A stretch of DNA of 64,000 bases. Origin: Methanosarcina horonobensis HB-1 = JCM 15518. GTDB taxonomy: Archaea > Halobacteriota > Methanosarcinia > Methanosarcinales > Methanosarcinaceae. Below, one piece after another: positions 4,205-12,809 of this stretch. Positions within the stretch are counted from its first letter, which is position 1. Each line of letters opens with the position of its first letter. The notes below the pieces were generated by a model. It ran no database searches and had not been told where the DNA came from. It saw only the letters and a program-made list of their open reading frames with translations. The position numbers were made by a program, and so were the translations under genes. The stretch lies in assembly GCF_000970285.1 (NCBI RefSeq), contig NZ_CP009516.1, forward strand, positions 558,001 to 622,000, read 5' to 3'.

Positions 4205-5179
4205 TTATTCCTCAGTTAGTTTCTCTTCACTGAGCATCCTGCACCAGATATTCATGTCCTCGAACCCACTTTCTATCCTGCAGTTTTTCACAAGCCTGCC
4301 TGTATAAGTATATCCCAGGGAAGCAAAGGCTATATTGATGCCAGAGGATGAAGCCCTGCAGAGGGTATAAGAGCTCAGGAAGTTCCTGGCTGAAAGTTCT
4401 TTTTCCAGGGCTGCTATAAGTTCTTTTATCAGCCCTTTTCCTCTTTCTGAAGGAACCGTAAGACAATCAGTTATTTCAGCGCTTCCGGTTTTTGGGTCCA
4501 TTTCTGCCGAGGCAATGCTCACAATTTTCCCATGCTTTTCTATAAGGAGGTAAAGGACATTGGAATCCATTGTTTTGAGCAGGTAGTTTTCCATGTGCAG
4601 GGGAGCAGGATACATTTGAAATCCTTCCCTGTAGAGTACTGCCATTGCAGTGGCATCTGCCTGGACTGCGGGCCTGAGTGTGTACTCTTCCGAAAGCCGT
4701 TTTTTCTCTTTTTGTTTTTTCCAGCTCTCTTTTTTCCGGAAACCTCTATCTTTCTGCCGGGTTTTTCCTATCTTTCTGTCTTTCTTCAGACAGCTTTCAA
4801 TTATCTGATTTTCTTTTTCTTTATAGAAAGAAATCCCTCTGGAGTTTTCAGGGTAAATTGAGAATATATAACAATCCTTCCCGGCATAGTATCCTTTGAT
4901 AGTCCCCTCTTCGATGTACCCGCAGGTTTCAAGTTCCTGCCTTTTTTCCGGAGGAGTGTATACGATTATTTTTCCCACTTCTTCTGCTTCGGCAAGAGCT
5001 TTGAGGGTTTCGGATACCTCTTCAAAAAGTCCGGTAAAATCCATGACTTTTATTCTTCTATTGTAGTAATCAATTACAAGCTCAGCCTTTTCCGTGCCGG
5101 AGATCTTTAGATGTGCTTTTCTCCAGTATCCGGGGAGTTCCTCTTTTATTTCAAGCGTTAAGGGAACGTTTTTTTCCGT
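4205..5179 (-). CDS. ablB: Beta-lysine N(epsilon)-acetyltransferase, start codon uncertain (possibly ACG)
   Basis: GNAT acetyltransferase that converts beta-lysine, made by the upstream gene product, into the compatible solute N-epsilon-acetyl-beta-lysine. The GNAT core is in the C-terminal half, with the acetyl-CoA loop PSERGKGLIKEL; a Lys/Glu/Arg-rich linker separates it from an N-terminal domain. The only ATG near the start is at 5044, but coding-like sequence (YWRKAHLKISGTEKAEL, then IDYYNRRIKV) continues in frame 45 codons upstream to a TAA at 5194. That interval contains no ATG, GTG or TTG. A strong Shine-Dalgarno (AAGGAGGGG) is spaced about 7 nt from an ACG at 5179, which I take as the provisional start (324 residues). 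The alternatives are ATG 5044 with a truncated N-terminus, or a mutated start. It lies about 70 nt after ablA on the same strand. Confidence 0.85.
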   Translation of the reverse strand, partial: TEKNVPLTLEIKEELPGYWRKAHLKISGTEKAELVIDYYNRRIKVMDFTGLFEEVSETLKALAEAEEVGKIIVYTPPEKRQELETCGYIEEGTIKGYYAGKDCYIFSIYPENSRGISFYKEKENQIIESCLKKDRKIGKTRQKDRGFRKKESWKKQKEKKRLSEEYTLRPAVQADATAMAVLYREGFQMYPAPLHMENYLLKTMDSNVLYLLIEKHGKIVSIASAEMDPKTGSAEITDCLTVPSERGKGLIKELIAALEKELSARNFLSSYTLCRASSSGINIAFASLGYTYTGRLVKNCRIESGFEDMNIWCRMLSEEKLTEE

Positions 5180-5249: not shown

Positions 5250-6509
5250 TCAGAAACGCTGTTTTCTTTCAAGGCCTTCAGGTTCAAGGGCGATGATATC
5301 ATTTTCTTCATCGTAGAGTTTTGCAAGACCTGTATCACTTTTAAGCCCGGGGTGCTTATCGCAGATGGAACATTTTTGCTGGCACTTCGCAGAGTACTCT
5401 GCAGGTTCCGGGTACATACAGATAACCCCTTCATAATTCCTGAGGGTTACCCCGGTGTCCGAACTTGAGATCAGGTAACTGGGTCCGACAGGGATTTTTC
5501 CTCCCCCTCCAGGGGCGTCAACTACAAAGGTGGGAACAGCAAGTCCTGAGGTGTGCCCTCTGAGCATCTCTATTATTTCTATACCTCGTGCAACCGAGGT
5601 CCTGAAATGTTCAAGTCCGAAGGAAAGGTCGCACTGGTAGAGGTAGTAAGGCCTGGTCTTTATCCTCAGGAGTTCATGGCAGAGATTTTTAATTATCACA
5701 GGACAGTCATTTACCCCCCTGAGGAGTACGGACTGGTTGCCTAGAGGAATTCCGGCACGGGCAAGCATGTTCACTGCCTTTCTTGATTCGGGAGTAATCT
5801 CTTTTGGATGATTGAAATGAGTATTGAGCCAGACCGACGGATATTTTCCAAGGATTTCGCACAGTTCCGGGGTTATGCGCTGGGGCAGGGTGACAGGCAC
5901 TCTTGTACCTAACCTTACGATCTCTACATGAGGAATACTAAAGAGTTCCCCTAAAAGCCAGTCCAGCCTTTTATCCGATACAAGAAGGGCATCTCCTCCC
6001 GAAAGCAGGACATCCCTTACTTCAGGATGCATCCTGACATACTCGATCCCTTCCCGGATTGCTTTTTCAGAATAGTCATATTCTCTGTTGCCGACTCTGC
6101 GCTTGCGGGTGCAGTGCCTGCAGTACATTCCGCAGCGGTTTGAAATAAGGAAAAGCACCCTGTCAGGGTACCTGTGTGTAATACAGCTCTCTTCTGATGG
6201 TGAATCCTGGTCTTCACAGAGAGGGTCTTCAAGTTCCCAGAAAGATTTTTGAAGCTCGGCTGAAATGGGGACAGCCTGCATCCGAATAGGACAGTCAGGA
6301 TCTTCCGGATCTATAAGGGATGCGTAATAAGGAGAAATTGCCATGGGAAAAACTTCCAGGGCCTTTTTTATATCTTCTTTCTCAGACTCCGAGAGAGGAA
6401 TAAGTTTTTCAAGTTCTTCCACAGTCGTAATTCTATGTCTGTACTGCCATTTCCAGTCTGAAAATTCTTCTTCAGATACGTTAAAACAGTCTTTAATCTT
6501 GGATCTCAC
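5250..6509 (-). CDS. ablA: Lysine 2,3-aminomutase
   Basis: Radical-SAM, PLP-dependent enzyme that converts L-lysine to beta-lysine, the first step of N-epsilon-acetyl-beta-lysine osmolyte synthesis in methanogens. The radical-SAM cysteines are in [12 protein letters not shown] (C-x3-C-x2-C, about residue 125), followed by [10 protein letters not shown] Cys-rich C-terminal tail ([15 protein letters not shown]) matches the Zn-binding region of the family. The 419-residue length is normal. The start is GTG, with GAGGT about 7 nt upstream. It heads an ablA-ablB unit, and a long AT-rich upstream gap with a TATA-like box is consistent with regulated (salt-responsive) expression; that regulation is known in Methanosarcina but only inferred here. 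Confidence 0.95.
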
Positions 6510-7085
6510 GTTTGAACCTCGTGAAAGCTGGATGAAAAATTAGGGACAGATGTCCAAAATATAGGAAAAATTGATTCCTGTTCAGTAAATTAATTTCTGT
6601 TTTTTCCAGCTTATTTAAAGAAAATGCGTCTTTAATTGATTAATGTTAAGAGTAAACACATATATTAAATACTTTTTTGTCTAAAGGAGTTCTAATATTT
6701 CTTTTATTGAGATAATAAGCTCCAAAAAACCTCGTTTTATAGCCAGTTTTTCCGTGTTTAAACGTATCTGATCTTTTTATTCTCGTATAATTCCTTGAAG
6801 TCAAGATTATTTACTTTTTAGTCCTTTCTGAGCAATTTTGGTATTAAAAAGAGGATTTTTATACCTTTAAAACTTATTTTAGGCTTCTAAAATGAGTGAA
6901 ATAACAAGAAGATCACTATTAATCTTATACTAAGAACACATTTTTACAGATAATTTTTAAGCTTATGGTTTAAGATGGACTTAAAAACGGGTTAATTTGA
7001 TAATCCTCGGCATGGTTTGTTTTCCCAACTTTTTGTTCGGGTGGCATAATGACATTTATATCATTTGAAAATTAAATATATATTG
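6510..7085. other. Divergent intergenic region between ablA and the antiporter gene
   Basis: About 576 nt, strongly AT-rich, with no credible gene. It holds the leftward ablA promoter candidate and must also hold the rightward antiporter promoter, for which I saw no single convincing box. Confidence 0.6.
6658..6671 (-). promoter_or_regulatory. TATA-like box for ablA
   Basis: On the minus strand the sequence reads GTATTTAATATATG, preceded by an A-run that could act as a BRE. It would start transcription near 6635 and give ablA a leader of roughly 125 nt. Confidence 0.35.
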
Positions 7086-9077
7086 ATGACATCGGATCTT
7101 TTGACTGATCTGCTAATCATTTTTGGGCTCTCAATTCCTGTAGTGTTTACTTTCTCAAAGCTAAAGATAGCCCCGATAGTGGGTTTCTTGCTCGCGGGAA
7201 TTCTTTCCGGTCCTTTCGGATTAGGGCTGGTTAACGATATAGATAATATTGAAATGCTGGCTGAAATAGGAGTCGTACTTCTGCTCTTTACTATCGGCAT
7301 GGAATTTTCCTTGAGGGAACTCCTGCAACTTCGCAGAATCGTAATCTTCGGAGGAGGGCTACAGCTTTCTATAACTGCTATTGCTGTTGCTTTTATTTTC
7401 CTCCTGCTAGGAAGTTCCAGGGAAACTGCTATTTTCCTCGGGCTTCTGGTGGCATTGAGCAGCACTGCAATTGTCCTTAAAATACTGCAGGAAAAAGGAG
7501 AAATTTACAGCCTCCATGGAAGAACCTCTCTGGGGATACTGATCTTCCAGGACGTGGCTGCAGTAGTAATTATTCTTTTGATCCCTCTCCTTGCAGGAAC
7601 TGAGGGAACGGAAAAATCCTTCTTAGAGCTTATCCTGCAAGGGCTTGGACTCATATTATTTACCATTTTCAGCGCCAGATATGCAGTTCCTTTCATTATG
7701 TACCAGGTAGCAAAGACGCGCAACAGCGAGCTCTTTCTCCTGAGCGTTGTAGCAATAGGGCTCTCGGTTGCCTGGTTGACATCCATGGTTGGCCTTTCTC
7801 TGGCTCTCGGAGCTTTTCTTGCCGGCCTTATCATCTCAGAGTCCGAATATTCTGTCCAGGCACTCGGGAACTTAATCCCTTTCAGGGATATGTTCATGAG
7901 CATTTTTTTCGTTTCGATAGGGATGCTGCTTGACCTGGATATATTGAGAGAGCATTTGTCCTTTATACTGGCTGCGACTCTGGCAGTGCTGATCCTGAAA
8001 GCTGCAGCAAACTCTCTGAGCACTTTCCTCATAGGTTTCCCTATGCATACAATGATTCTGGTCGGTTTTTCCCTATCTCAGGTAGGGGAATTCTCACTGA
8101 TTCTTGCAAAGACAGGCTTTACAAGCGGGTTGATATCTTCCGAAATTTACCAGGAATTCCTTGATATAGCCGTTATTTCCATGGTACTCACTCCTTTCAT
8201 AATGGGCATGGGATACAGGACTACCTCTTTTGCCGAGTCGCTTCCCATTCCTTCAATAATAAAATCCGGGTGGTACAGGCATTTTAAGGAACACGAATCT
8301 CAGGAAATTCCCGAAAACCATGTGATTGTAGTAGGTTTCGGGGTAAATGGGAGAAACGTCGTGACAGCTGCAAAGTCAGCTTCTATCCCTTACAGGATAG
8401 TAGATATCAATCCAGAAACCATCAGGAAGGAAAAACAAAACGGAGAACACATCCTTTATGGAGATGCTGCCCAGAAAGCTGTGCTGGAACACGCAGGTAT
8501 CCTGACTGCAAAATCAGTTGTCGTGACCGCAGGAGACCCTGCCAGTGCGAGAAGAATTATTGAAGCTGCCCGGAGGCTAAACCCGGAAGTCCATATTATT
8601 GCCAGAACACATTTCCTGAGCGAACTGGATAAGTTTTATGCTGCCGGGGCGGACGAGGTCATCTCTGATGAGTTTGAAAGCTCGATAGAGCTTTTTACAA
8701 GAGTACTCCACAGGTATCTGGTTCCAGGGAGCGAAATCGATTCTCTGGGTTCAACCTTACGTGCGAACCATTACAGGATGCTCCGCAGCCCTGATATCCT
8801 CCGGAAAAAGTTCTGTGACCTGGCTCTTGATTTTGCAGATGTAGAAATCAGGAGTATAAGAGTCGGGAAACTTTCCATGGGAGCAGGAAAAACGATTGGA
8901 GAGCTCAATATCCGGAAAAAGTACGGTGTTTCCATACTTGCAATTTCCAGACATCATAAACTGATCTCCGGGCTGCAAGCTGAGACTGAGATCCTTGCAG
9001 ATGATATTCTGCTTGTAATCAGCCCGCCGGAAAAGCTTGATGAAGTTAAAAGACTTTTTGAAGATGGAGTGAAGTGA
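7086..9077 (+). CDS. Kef-type (CPA2) cation/proton antiporter with TrkA domains
   Basis: Monovalent cation:proton antiporter of the CPA2 family, probably K+ or Na+ linked. The N-terminal 380 residues carry about 12 hydrophobic helices, including the family signatures ALSSTAIVLKIL and SLALGAFLAGLIIS. A TrkA-N (RCK) nucleotide-binding domain begins near residue 412 with VIVVGFGVNGRNV, and a TrkA-C domain closes the protein (about residues 580-660). I chose the ATG at 7086; an in-frame TTG lies seven codons upstream and no good Shine-Dalgarno distinguishes them. The gene is divergent from the osmolyte genes ablA-ablB, which fits joint use in ionic adaptation, though co-regulation is inference. 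Confidence 0.92.
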   Translation: MTSDLLTDLLIIFGLSIPVVFTFSKLKIAPIVGFLLAGILSGPFGLGLVNDIDNIEMLAEIGVVLLLFTIGMEFSLRELLQLRRIVIFGGGLQLSITAIAVAFIFLLLGSSRETAIFLGLLVALSSTAIVLKILQEKGEIYSLHGRTSLGILIFQDVAAVVIILLIPLLAGTEGTEKSFLELILQGLGLILFTIFSARYAVPFIMYQVAKTRNSELFLLSVVAIGLSVAWLTSMVGLSLALGAFLAGLIISESEYSVQALGNLIPFRDMFMSIFFVSIGMLLDLDILREHLSFILAATLAVLILKAAANSLSTFLIGFPMHTMILVGFSLSQVGEFSLILAKTGFTSGLISSEIYQEFLDIAVISMVLTPFIMGMGYRTTSFAESLPIPSIIKSGWYRHFKEHESQEIPENHVIVVGFGVNGRNVVTAAKSASIPYRIVDINPETIRKEKQNGEHILYGDAAQKAVLEHAGILTAKSVVVTAGDPASARRIIEAARRLNPEVHIIARTHFLSELDKFYAAGADEVISDEFESSIELFTRVLHRYLVPGSEIDSLGSTLRANHYRMLRSPDILRKKFCDLALDFADVEIRSIRVGKLSMGAGKTIGELNIRKKYGVSILAISRHHKLISGLQAETEILADDILLVISPPEKLDEVKRLFEDGVK

Positions 9078-9393
9078 TGTCTCCTTCCTCAATATTTTTT
9101 GTTAGATGGTATTGAGAATAAGCAGTTCTAAAGAAAATTCCAAAACTCTGGATACGCTAATATTACTTATAATATTATTACTCATTTACTTATTAAATTA
9201 GTATTTATTTTATTAGTGTTAACATTAATTATGTGTAATATCATAATTCGGTGGGGTCAAAAACTTCAATTTCAATCCTGATAATGGCAAATAAGATTTC
9301 AACTATACCTCTTTAATTTAAGTTTGCTTTCACATATCTTCGATTTGCAATATTTGTAAAATATTTTACTTTATAATTTGGTGGAAAACTCTT
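9078..9393. other. AT-rich intergenic region
   Basis: About 316 nt of very AT-rich DNA (9150-9240 especially) before the DUF1538 operon. A GGTGG Shine-Dalgarno lies at 9380-9384. No gene or RNA was recognised. Confidence 0.5.
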
Positions 9394-10089
9394 ATGATGA
9401 GGGATTTTAAAGAAACCTTTCTCGAAGTTATTCAGGCAGTATTGCCTTTAACACTGGCAGTGATAGTGATCATGCTAGTGTTCACAGGTTCAAACCCGGT
9501 TCATTTTGTATCCTTTTTATCCGGCACAGTGCTGGTCATAATGGGAATGACTTTTTTCCTTATGGGTGTCAAACTGGGGATGCTGCCAATAGGTGAGGCA
9601 ATCGGAGCTGATTTGCCAAAGCATGGTTCACTGATATTTATTGCAGTAGTAGCGTTTTTACTCTCCTTTCTTACAACGATTGCAGAGCCTGATGTAAGAG
9701 TTCTGAGCAGTATGATTGATTCAGTTTCAGAAGACAGCATAGACCGTAATTTACTGCTCATATCAATAGCTTTCGGAGTAGGATTCTTTGTGACCGCTTC
9801 CATTCTCAGGATAGTCTACGGAGTCTCGATAAAACATCTGTTTGCAATAAGTTATCTAATCATAATCTTACTGTCCTTTTTTACACCGTCTGAGTACCTT
9901 GCTATTTCCTTTGATGCAGGAGGCGTGACCACCGGACCTATGACCGTACCTGTAATTATGGCCCTGGGGATCGGGACAGCTTCGGTGTTGCAGGAGAGGT
10001 CTCAACTTTCTGAAGGTTTCGGGCTCATAGGTTTTGCATCGATAGGTCCCATACTCAGTATAATGCTGCTGGGGGTGCTTTCTTCATGA
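9394..10089 (+). CDS. DUF1538 family membrane protein (first copy)
   Basis: A 231-residue polytopic membrane protein of the DUF1538 family, usually described as a putative permease with no established substrate. It has about six to seven hydrophobic helices; recognisable segments are FLLSFLTTIAEPDVRVL near residues 88-104 and FDAGGVTTGPMTVPV near 171-185. The same two motifs recur in the next gene (FLATFAEPAVRVL and FDSGGVATGPMAV), so the pair are diverged repeats that probably form a two-subunit transporter. GGTGG precedes the ATG with 9 nt spacing. The stop overlaps the start of the second copy (ATGA). Family assignment is good; function unknown. Confidence 0.85.
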   Translation: MMRDFKETFLEVIQAVLPLTLAVIVIMLVFTGSNPVHFVSFLSGTVLVIMGMTFFLMGVKLGMLPIGEAIGADLPKHGSLIFIAVVAFLLSFLTTIAEPDVRVLSSMIDSVSEDSIDRNLLLISIAFGVGFFVTASILRIVYGVSIKHLFAISYLIIILLSFFTPSEYLAISFDAGGVTTGPMTVPVIMALGIGTASVLQERSQLSEGFGLIGFASIGPILSIMLLGVLSS

Positions 10090-10820
10090 ATTCTGCGAGT
10101 ACAGAAGGAATATTGCTTGTGTTTCTCGAAGTTATTCAGGCACTTGCCCCTCTCGTGTTATTTTTTATAGTGTTCCAGTATTTTTACCTGAAGCTGCCTA
10201 GATCACAGTTGATCAAGCTCTTTACAGGAATATTTTTTACTGCAACCGGGATGATCTTATTTTTACACGGAGTCTATAGTGGTTTTTTCCCTGTGGGGAT
10301 GGAAATAGGTGAATTTTTTGGTAATTCTAACAAAAAAAGCCTGTTAATCCCTATAGGTTTTGTCCTTGGATTTCTTGCCACCTTCGCAGAACCTGCCGTA
10401 AGAGTATTATGTTACCAGATTGAGGAATCTTCCAGTGGTTATATCAGTTCGAAACTTATGCTCTATACACTTTCTTCCGGAGTTGCTGTATTTGTTTCCA
10501 TTGCGATGACAAAACTTGTTTACGGAATTCCTTTCATTTATATTATAGTCCCAGGATATTTGTTTGTCCTTGTTCTGTTATGGTTTTGCGACAAGGATTT
10601 TATTGCTATTGCATTTGACTCAGGAGGGGTTGCAACGGGTCCTATGGCTGTGACATTCCTCATGTCAATGGCAGTCGGAGTAGCCTCGGTGCAGGAAGGC
10701 GGAAATCCCATTGTAGACGGTTTTGGCCTGATTGCAATGATAGCACTTGCACCTATTATCTTTGTTATGCTTCTGGGTGTTTATATAAGATTTATCGGAG
10801 GTAGAAATAATGTCGAGTGA
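10086..10820 (+). CDS. DUF1538 family membrane protein (second copy)
   Basis: A 244-residue paralogue of the preceding gene with the same order of membrane helices and motifs (FLATFAEPAVRVL, FDSGGVATGPMAV, GFGLIAMIALAPI). It begins within the ATGA overlap with copy one and overlaps the following PII-like gene by 11 nt, so all three are very probably one translationally coupled operon. In some bacteria DUF1538 occurs as one longer protein with two such halves; here the halves are separate genes. The transported substrate is not known. Confidence 0.85.
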   Translation: MNSASTEGILLVFLEVIQALAPLVLFFIVFQYFYLKLPRSQLIKLFTGIFFTATGMILFLHGVYSGFFPVGMEIGEFFGNSNKKSLLIPIGFVLGFLATFAEPAVRVLCYQIEESSSGYISSKLMLYTLSSGVAVFVSIAMTKLVYGIPFIYIIVPGYLFVLVLLWFCDKDFIAIAFDSGGVATGPMAVTFLMSMAVGVASVQEGGNPIVDGFGLIAMIALAPIIFVMLLGVYIRFIGGRNNVE

Positions 10821-11175
10821 AGGAGATTTTGTATTAGTCGTAACGATTGTAAAAAAAGGATGGGGCGATGATGTAGTCAAGGCTTCCAGAAAGGCCGGTG
10901 CCCAGGGTGGAACAATTTTGTTTGGGCGAGGTACAGGTATACATGAAAACAAAAGTATCCTTGGTCTGATGATAGAACCGGAGAAAGAAATCGTACTTAC
11001 CATCGCAGAATCGGATATGGTAGATATTATCCAGAGTTCTATTACCGAGGCAGTAAAACTTGATGAACCTGGAATGGGTATAGGATTTGTGCTTCCTATA
11101 GAGAAAGTGTTTGGCATTTCTCGCTATTTCTGTGACGTCCAGGACACATTACAGAAAAATCTTAAATCACAATAA
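10810..11175 (+). CDS. PII-like (GlnB/GlnK superfamily) regulatory protein
   Basis: A 121-residue protein with the PII ferredoxin-like fold pattern: an N-terminal strand VLVVTIVKKGWGDDVVKAS, a T-loop region around GGTILFGRGTGIHENKS, then a second strand-helix repeat EIVLTIAESDMVDIIQSSI. The T-loop lacks the uridylylated-Tyr context of enteric GlnB, so it is better called PII-like than GlnK. GGAGGT lies about 6 nt before the ATG, inside the end of the upstream DUF1538 gene. By analogy with AmtB-GlnK and SbtA-SbtB, a soluble PII trimer encoded with a membrane transporter probably gates it; ligand and partner contact are inferences. Confidence 0.85.
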   Translation: MSSEGDFVLVVTIVKKGWGDDVVKASRKAGAQGGTILFGRGTGIHENKSILGLMIEPEKEIVLTIAESDMVDIIQSSITEAVKLDEPGMGIGFVLPIEKVFGISRYFCDVQDTLQKNLKSQ

Positions 11176-11330
11176 CCTCTTACCTGAGGGTAAATATGAA
11201 TACCTTTTTCCCATTTGTGTTTATTGAAGCATCAAGAAAAACAATCTCATCTGTTGTGTCTTTGTGTATAATTTAATTATATCTGAGACATTTATTGACT
11301 ATTTAATAATCTTGACGAGAATCAGGTTTG

Positions 11331-11525
11331 GTGGTTTTCATAAATGGAGAGAAAATTGAGAAAAGGATCTTCGAAGAACTTAACTTTATCAAAAAACAAC
11401 TTGGGGAAATGAAAGAACATATGGTAGACATAGATGCCCTACTCACTGCAGAAGAAAAGGAGATTGTTTCTAAAAGCTTTGAAAACGAGAAGAAAGGAAA
11501 ACTCATAAACTTTAAAAACTTTTAA
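11331..11525 (+). CDS. Antitoxin-like small protein paired with RelE-type toxin
   Basis: About 64 residues, charged and helical (KQLGEMKEHMVDIDALLTAEE), without a recognisable DNA-binding domain. Position 16 nt upstream of a RelE-like toxin gene and its size and composition identify it as the likely antitoxin. The start is GTG at 11331; a TTG one codon earlier is possible. The identity rests mainly on context. Confidence 0.65.
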   Translation: MVFINGEKIEKRIFEELNFIKKQLGEMKEHMVDIDALLTAEEKEIVSKSFENEKKGKLINFKNF

Positions 11526-11540
11526 TAACCGGAGTTTAAA

Positions 11541-11798
11541 ATGTTTGAAGTTTTCCTTGACACTCAAGTTCAAAATTTTTTGAGATCTGCAGACGGAATT
11601 ACTTTTGCACGGGTCAGGGAAGTCTTTCAAGAGCTTGCCCTTGATCCTGTCCCTCGGGGTGCAAAAAGAACAATTGAGAGTCCGGAAAAACTTTTCAGGC
11701 TGAGGTCCAGACATTTAAGGTTACTTTATAGAATTAATTATGAAAAAGAAGCAGTTGTAATTCTGATTATCGAACCTTTGATTCGTATGTATCGCTAA
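11541..11798 (+). CDS. RelE/ParE-superfamily toxin
   Basis: An 85-residue basic protein with the RelE/ParE layout: N-terminal strand and helix (FEVFLDTQVQNFL), a middle helix region ending LALDPVPRGAKR, then beta strands KLFRLRSRHLRLLYRINYE and AVVILIIEPLIRMYR. The Arg-rich LFRLRSRHLRLLYR strand is typical of the mRNA-interferase branch. The ATG has CCGGAG upstream. It is immediately downstream of a small acidic partner, the standard antitoxin-toxin order. Whether the toxin acts on ribosomal mRNA or on gyrase cannot be told from sequence. Confidence 0.8.
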   Translation: MFEVFLDTQVQNFLRSADGITFARVREVFQELALDPVPRGAKRTIESPEKLFRLRSRHLRLLYRINYEKEAVVILIIEPLIRMYR

Positions 11799-12809
11799 AT
11801 AAGATTAACGGGAAAAAGCTTAATATAGGCTAAGTTAAAATAAAGTTTAAAAAAGCATGCTTTAACGTGCAGAATACATACTACAGATCTGTTGTAATAA
11901 AACAGGAAACTTGAGACTAACGATACAGTTGTGACTGTGGAATAAATCCGGTGAGATTATATCTTAAACATTTATCCAATCACTAATTTTTGCAATTCTC
12001 CTCTTTGCTTTCTCCCCTTTCCTGAATCAGAGCTTTTTTGTTTCTTGATTGGTTACTTAAAATACGGGATCAAAAGAAGCAAACTTTGAGTCCTGGGGCC
12101 GGCTCATCTACTATATATTATTGAAGAAAATAAAAAGACTTTAAATTTGCTCTCTTACCATAGCACTTATAATTCTGCTTGGGTTGCTTAGCATGTTTTT
12201 CCCTAATTTATGAGACGATCAACGTTCTACCTTTTCCTATTATAGCCTGTTGCATCAATCATTTCATCCAGGACTGGCCGCAGAAAATCAAAAGAAGTAC
12301 AAAGAGGCAAATACAAAATATTATTTCAGCCTGTCTTAAAAAATTGTCAACCATAATACTATACCACCAACATATTTTGTATATTATCTCCTGTTTCATC
12401 TTTTAAATGTATTTTATATTGTCTCGCATTAGTTTATACATCTGATGACATATCAATTTAATTGATATTGTAAATCTAGTTTTTTCGGCTAAACAACTAA
12501 ATTAATTTACTAATGTTTCTTTGCATATTTCACCTCTCTGGCTTCCAAAATATAGAAACCTCGCTTCTATCTATATTGTTTTTTTCTTCCATTTCTCTTT
12601 GAATATTGATCAATTTTCGCAATCTTCCGGCGGTCTCTTTGAGATTAGTCGGACACTGTGATTGAAGAGCATCTCTTCTATATATGGAATCTTTTCCTAT
12701 TCCTATACCATTATTGCCGGATCATTTTTTTTATTACAATATTTTTAAAATTAAAAAGTATCTTTGTAAAAAAAACAAAACATTTTTATATTTCACTGCC
12801 CTGTTATTA
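11799..12809. other. 1 kb intergenic region without a credible gene
   Basis: AT-rich and broken by stops. The longest reading frame (12179-12406) has no Shine-Dalgarno and unusual composition. The last 30 nt carry a TATA-like element for the next gene. I cannot identify a degraded gene here. Confidence 0.5.
12783..12792 (+). promoter_or_regulatory. TATA-like box for the membrane/actin-like gene pair
   Basis: TTTTTATATT lies 20-30 nt upstream of the candidate starts at 12810 (ATG), 12813 (GTG) and 12819 (ATG). No Shine-Dalgarno precedes them, suggesting a short or absent leader. Confidence 0.35.

Follow-up and report, generated by a model that had tools for sequence, protein, structure and literature searches.

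What does a PII-like protein control when its gene overlaps those of two putative membrane permeases? The question is raised by three head-to-tail genes on the forward strand of a window, the whole stretch of 64,000 nucleotides of Methanosarcina horonobensis DNA that was analyzed. The first gene (D1, 9394-10089) encodes a UmpA-like DUF1538 half of 231 aa, with the conserved motifs E98-P99 (9685-9690) and FDAGGVTTGP (from 9910). The second (D2, 10086-10820) encodes a DUF1538 protein of 244 aa that resembles the C-terminal half of fused homologues and carries E102-P103 (10389-10394) and FDSGGVATGP. The third (10810-11175) encodes a PII-like protein of 121 aa, in which the family motif RGTGIHE at the base of the T-loop (10927-10947) has H-E for the canonical Q39-K40, and the B-loop PGMGIGF (11068-11088) retains its glycines with Ile at the position of Lys90. 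The ORF coordinates give overlaps of 4 nt between D1 and D2 and of 11 nt between D2 and the PII-like gene, and the three overlapping genes are exactly those described in an earlier, sequence-only reading of this DNA. Both DUF1538 proteins match the Pfam family (PF07556) over almost its whole length (E=3.4e-71 and 2.2e-72; 239 and 243 bits against a gathering threshold of 22.6; profile positions 2-211 and 2-210 of 211), and the PII-like protein matches P-II (PF00543) modestly, above the cut-off (E=2.4e-6, 28.2 bits vs 25). DUF1538 is present in this genome as a single pair. Of the genome's five PII genes, that of the operon scores 28 bits to the PII model and the remaining four score 87-114. 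The closest named loci belong to Methanosarcina, at 90% identity. Downstream, 11328-11798 holds a small gene and then an 85-aa ParE-type toxin-like ORF (PF05016, 21.0 bits, under the cut-off of 23); similar 85-aa ORFs also lie downstream in two related loci (L008, L009).

DUF1538 loci were gathered from 247 Halobacteriota genomes, from plasmids, and from the phyla to which a Clostridiales locus (199 genomes), a Nitrospiraceae locus (118), a Spirochaetia locus (120), and a Planctomycetota locus (199) belong, and were annotated with locally built profiles. Far from usually lacking a PII neighbor, DUF1538 loci have, in 144 of the 145 non-redundant cases whose downstream sequence reaches 350 bp or more, one or more PII-like genes directly downstream on the same strand, although such counts are not independent trials, since the loci are related and since the PII-like profile used for the reverse search (A4) was built from DUF1538-linked sequences. 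The median gap in this set is -8 nt, with 100 loci overlapping, and the linkage extends over Halobacteriota, several bacterial phyla, and plasmids. The sole exception (L039) was considered as a case of PII loss and rejected as such, as longer sequence places its PII-like gene 2.7 kb further on, displaced by an insertion that carries an IS605-type OrfB gene. Co-occurrence is nearly two-way. Among the Halobacteriota, the 37 genomes (of 247) with an A4 match of at least 76 bits are the same 37 that have DUF1538 over the cut-off, the best other PII reaching 44 bits. In Bacillota, the phylum of the Clostridiales locus, a PII-like gene is found in 66 of 67 DUF1538 genomes, the odd one holding the remains of a broken DUF1538 gene, and PII-like matches occur without DUF1538 in two genomes; on plasmids, the two queries return the same 9 records. 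The Nitrospirota pairs, which are the nearest to the characterized UmpAB among the phyla surveyed (293 and 264 bits to UmpA and UmpB), also have the PII-like gene. Plasmids of Methylocystis and Chelativorans carry the module (L068, L069), with transposases near L068 and a shortened first DUF1538 gene on the Chelativorans plasmid. In one genome with a full operon, a further PII-like gene stands alone, downstream of a gene for a PntB-like transhydrogenase (L239:3703-4050).

The DUF1538 genes occur as adjacent pairs, as fusions of about 500 aa, or as apparent single genes, and the number of accompanying PII domains varies from one to three. One of the single-gene members is the only DUF1538 match in a genome assembled as one contig (G006). 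The term "half-transporters" used in the earlier reading is apt, as the two domains form one fused protein in many bacteria. When Lys and Arg residues were counted over the loops, as delimited by the seven helices assigned to UmpA (PMC5484666) and by the helix ends of a predicted model, the bias was positive in 121/121 first halves and negative in 121/121 second halves, while the single-gene members (n=8) were nearer neutral (0 to +4); the simplest counts, over the N-tail, first loop, and C-tail, gave the same charge split. Opposite biases with single genes near zero are the pattern of inverted topology, assuming an odd number of transmembrane helices per half, and to judge from the sequences the pair would be an inverted-topology heterodimer, with D1 predicted N-in/C-out and D2 N-out/C-in. 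The model of a fused homologue is confident (pLDDT 84.6, pTM 0.84) and, in each half, its helices break where the conserved motifs E-P and D-x-G-G lie. No close structural relative was found in the PDB (best E at least 0.013, TM about 0.2 or less), and a sequence profile search of the PDB gave weak matches only. A scan of viral contigs with the fused protein gave no relative; matches in a phage collection sit in unannotated fragments that may be bacterial DNA.

The sequence-only reading had left the substrate of these proteins unknown, a statement that needs updating: UmpAB, a DUF1538 pair from Halomonas, has been characterized as a Na+(Li+,K+)/H+ antiporter and reported as a heterodimer (PMC5484666), and DUF1538 is also present in a published list of features for bacterial growth pH. 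As the family has this characterized member, the substrate class of the window's pair is probably, by analogy, monovalent cation/H+ rather than ammonium or bicarbonate. D1 and D2 are homologues only of UmpA and UmpB, scoring 130/98 and 116/85 bits to the equivalog models NF041627/NF041628, far below the curated 490/500, so that the substrate could differ. The cloned 4.2 kb Halomonas fragment with antiport activity has no PII ORF listed (PMC5484666), which indicates that transport in E. coli works without a PII-like partner.

That the third protein has a PII fold is borne out by Pfam scores, structure prediction, and PDB matches alike. Its AF2 model has the strand and helix order of PII, with low confidence in the loop region, and the best 50 PDB structure matches listed are all PII or GlnK proteins (Foldseek E 4e-7 to GlnK1). 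PF00543 matches 20/20 rows of the PII-like family at E<=0.01, and by sequence the closest PDB entry is the P-II protein 9p1x (E 2.3e-10). Five canonical PII sequences split from the PII-like proteins in a tree with support of 100/100, placing the latter in a distinct clade by sequence. The T-loop, as claimed earlier, lacks the enteric modification site: it is about 5 residues shorter than that of GlnK, without an equivalent of Tyr51, and the signature Y-[KR]-G-[AS]-[AE]-Y is found in 0/143 PII-like domains. The canonical ligand residues are lost as well. Across 65 single-domain members, T29, G35, G37, K58, G87, G89, and F92 (GlnK numbering) are conserved in most or all, whereas other residues stand in place of Q39, K40, K90, R101, and R103 and the Tyr51 region is absent, the positions of Q39, K90, R101, and R103 holding mostly H, I/L, G, and mixed residues, respectively; the RGTGIHE motif is common to the family. 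Since both ligand residues and modification site are gone, ATP/2-oxoglutarate sensing should not be assumed, and the loss of phosphate-binding residues disfavors canonical ATP binding. Nucleotide ligands are still possible, because SbtB binds nucleotides with residues other than the canonical ones (PMC10117731). In two loci (L179, L181), three PII domains lie in one chain of 374-377 aa beside a fused DUF1538 protein, which fits a trimeric unit.

The operon belongs to a salt/osmolyte island. On the opposite strand lie ablB (4205-5044; beta-lysine N-acetyltransferase, 323 bits vs a cut-off of 205) and ablA (5250-6509; lysine 2,3-aminomutase of acetyl-beta-lysine osmolyte synthesis, 671 bits vs 525), and they are followed on the forward strand by a KefC/KefB-like CPA2 monovalent cation:proton antiporter gene (7065-9077) with TrkA_N and TrkA_C domains. 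This Kef-like neighbor and the operon probably share physiology. Both ablA and the Kef-like gene precede the operon in the window and in L008, as do ablA and an ORF resembling the Kef-like antiporter in L009; the Kef-like gene is retained near the operon in L008, L011, and L012, and by ORF resemblance only in L009. In all, a CPA2-type antiporter lies near 5/6 Methanosarcinaceae loci, in three arrangements, if L009 is counted on this resemblance. Divergent PII-like genes are also the immediate neighbors of CPA Na+/H+ antiporter genes at two loci that lack DUF1538 (L240:274-2106, L243:3767-5439). Riboswitches for c-di-AMP control K+ transport genes (PMC6488665); in two cases among about 65 Bacillota loci scanned, one is found immediately upstream of a DUF1538-PII operon (L142:3749-3896; L102:2952-3079, minus strand), a link that is suggestive only. 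FMN, T-box, c-di-GMP, and cobalamin matches near some loci were set aside, none being directly upstream on the operon strand, and an Rfam search of 6500-12500 of the window gave no match.

The explanation toward which these observations lean, by a little, is that the pair is a UmpAB-type monovalent cation/proton antiporter gated by a PII-like sensor dedicated to it. The operon would encode the antiporter, made of two homologous DUF1538 subunits in opposite membrane orientations, together with its own PII-like regulator. The latter, probably a trimer, would bind a small ligand in its inter-subunit clefts, likely not the canonical ATP and 2-oxoglutarate and perhaps an adenine nucleotide, a cyclic nucleotide, or a cation. 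The ligand-bound protein would then dock its short loop on the cytoplasmic face of the antiporter and open or block it, a step modeled on GlnK with AmtB and SbtB with SbtA; that the effect is inhibition is a guess. What the analysis shows is that the genes are linked, that the third protein has a PII fold, belongs to its own clade, and is without the canonical ligand residues, and that the two halves differ in the sign of their charge bias; direct contact, a ligand, a trimer, and, through the Halomonas UmpAB, antiport in M. horonobensis are inferred. The gating of a transporter by the PII-like protein, as first proposed, is the best-supported reading given the linkage at 144/145 loci, with direct gating a step beyond that linkage. 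Known PII-gated transporters are trimers (PMC10710835), and the report of UmpAB as a heterodimer counts against gating. A broader generalization is put forward tentatively, and may well not hold: that a PII subfamily devoid of canonical ATP/2-oxoglutarate residues serves, in archaea and bacteria, as the dedicated sensor-gate of an inverted-topology monovalent cation/proton antiporter with a fold absent from the PDB, sensing ion or c-di-AMP status rather than nitrogen.

Near-obligate linkage with gene overlap, and the loss of canonical ATP and 2-oxoglutarate residues, would also be expected of a structural or assembly subunit that is permanently bound and does not switch with a ligand. This is unlikely, as the Halomonas clone is active with no PII ORF listed, and both the conserved RGTGIHE loop motif and the pairing of divergent relatives with unrelated CPA antiporters fit a sensor better. 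Membership of the PII family and the analogy with AmtB-GlnK and SbtA-SbtB speak for another role, in which the pair moves a nitrogen or carbon compound (ammonium, bicarbonate, or an amino acid) and the PII-like protein reports nitrogen/carbon status. However, the characterized homologue is a Na+/K+:H+ antiporter, Q39, K90, R101, and R103 are lost, and the neighbors are osmolyte and K+/H+ exchange genes, which leaves such a role distinctly improbable. Least probable of the three is that the PII-like protein is merely co-encoded and acts elsewhere, on the Kef-like neighbor or in metabolism. Relatives do lie beside CPA antiporters in L240 and L243, and the Kef-like gene adjoins the operon in the window, but the linkage that crosses phyla is with DUF1538 and not with CPA genes, and the Kef-like protein already carries TrkA_N and TrkA_C domains.

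PII is mentioned neither in the UmpAB paper (PMC5484666) nor in two cable-bacteria papers that name UmpAB, and the DUF1538-PII partnership thus seems undescribed in the open-access papers covered. The linkage suggests an unrecognized PII branch that controls salt balance in this archaeon and in numerous unrelated bacteria. Should the two partners interact physically, PII control would reach Na+/K+:H+ antiport, on which pH and salt tolerance depend, and the generalization that PII gates only trimer-capable transporters (PMC10710835) would be put to the test. The occurrence of DUF1538 genes as singles, pairs, and fusions also offers a natural series in which to study the evolution of inverted-repeat transporters.

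Several known systems offer partial parallels. As in AmtB-GlnK, a PII-fold protein is encoded beside a membrane transporter; the transporter of the window is nevertheless of another family, its gene precedes that of the PII-like protein, and the latter has neither the uridylylation Tyr nor Q39/K90/R101/R103. As in SbtA-SbtB, a dedicated PII-like protein is co-encoded with a secondary transporter, whereas no PDB structure, SbtA included, significantly matches the predicted DUF1538 fold; neither SbtB nor PstA is named among the 36 PDB matches of the PII-like family profile at E<=0.01. The analogy with these two systems, drawn in the sequence-only reading, is the best explanation as regards a gated transporter and probably does not extend to an ammonium or bicarbonate substrate or to canonical ligand sensing, given UmpAB activity and the lost residues. 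By its description, the CzcA-linked PII-NG (Sant'Anna 2009, as cited in PMC7726332) likewise combines a divergent PII with a proton-driven cation exporter, but the pumps to which it is linked are divalent-metal RND pumps (PMC7726332). The c-di-AMP receptors PstA/DarA are PII-like proteins with a ligand outside the canonical set; they have a short T-loop and a long B-loop (PMC6516651), whereas the B-loop in the window is short, as in canonical PII. Lastly, the PII-like gene of the window overlaps that of the second subunit, unlike in the Halomonas UmpAB clone (NF041627/NF041628), which lists no PII, while the two share the arrangement of adjacent, overlapping, and homologous DUF1538 genes of about 230-270 aa, as reported in Halomonas zhaodongensis (PMC5484666).
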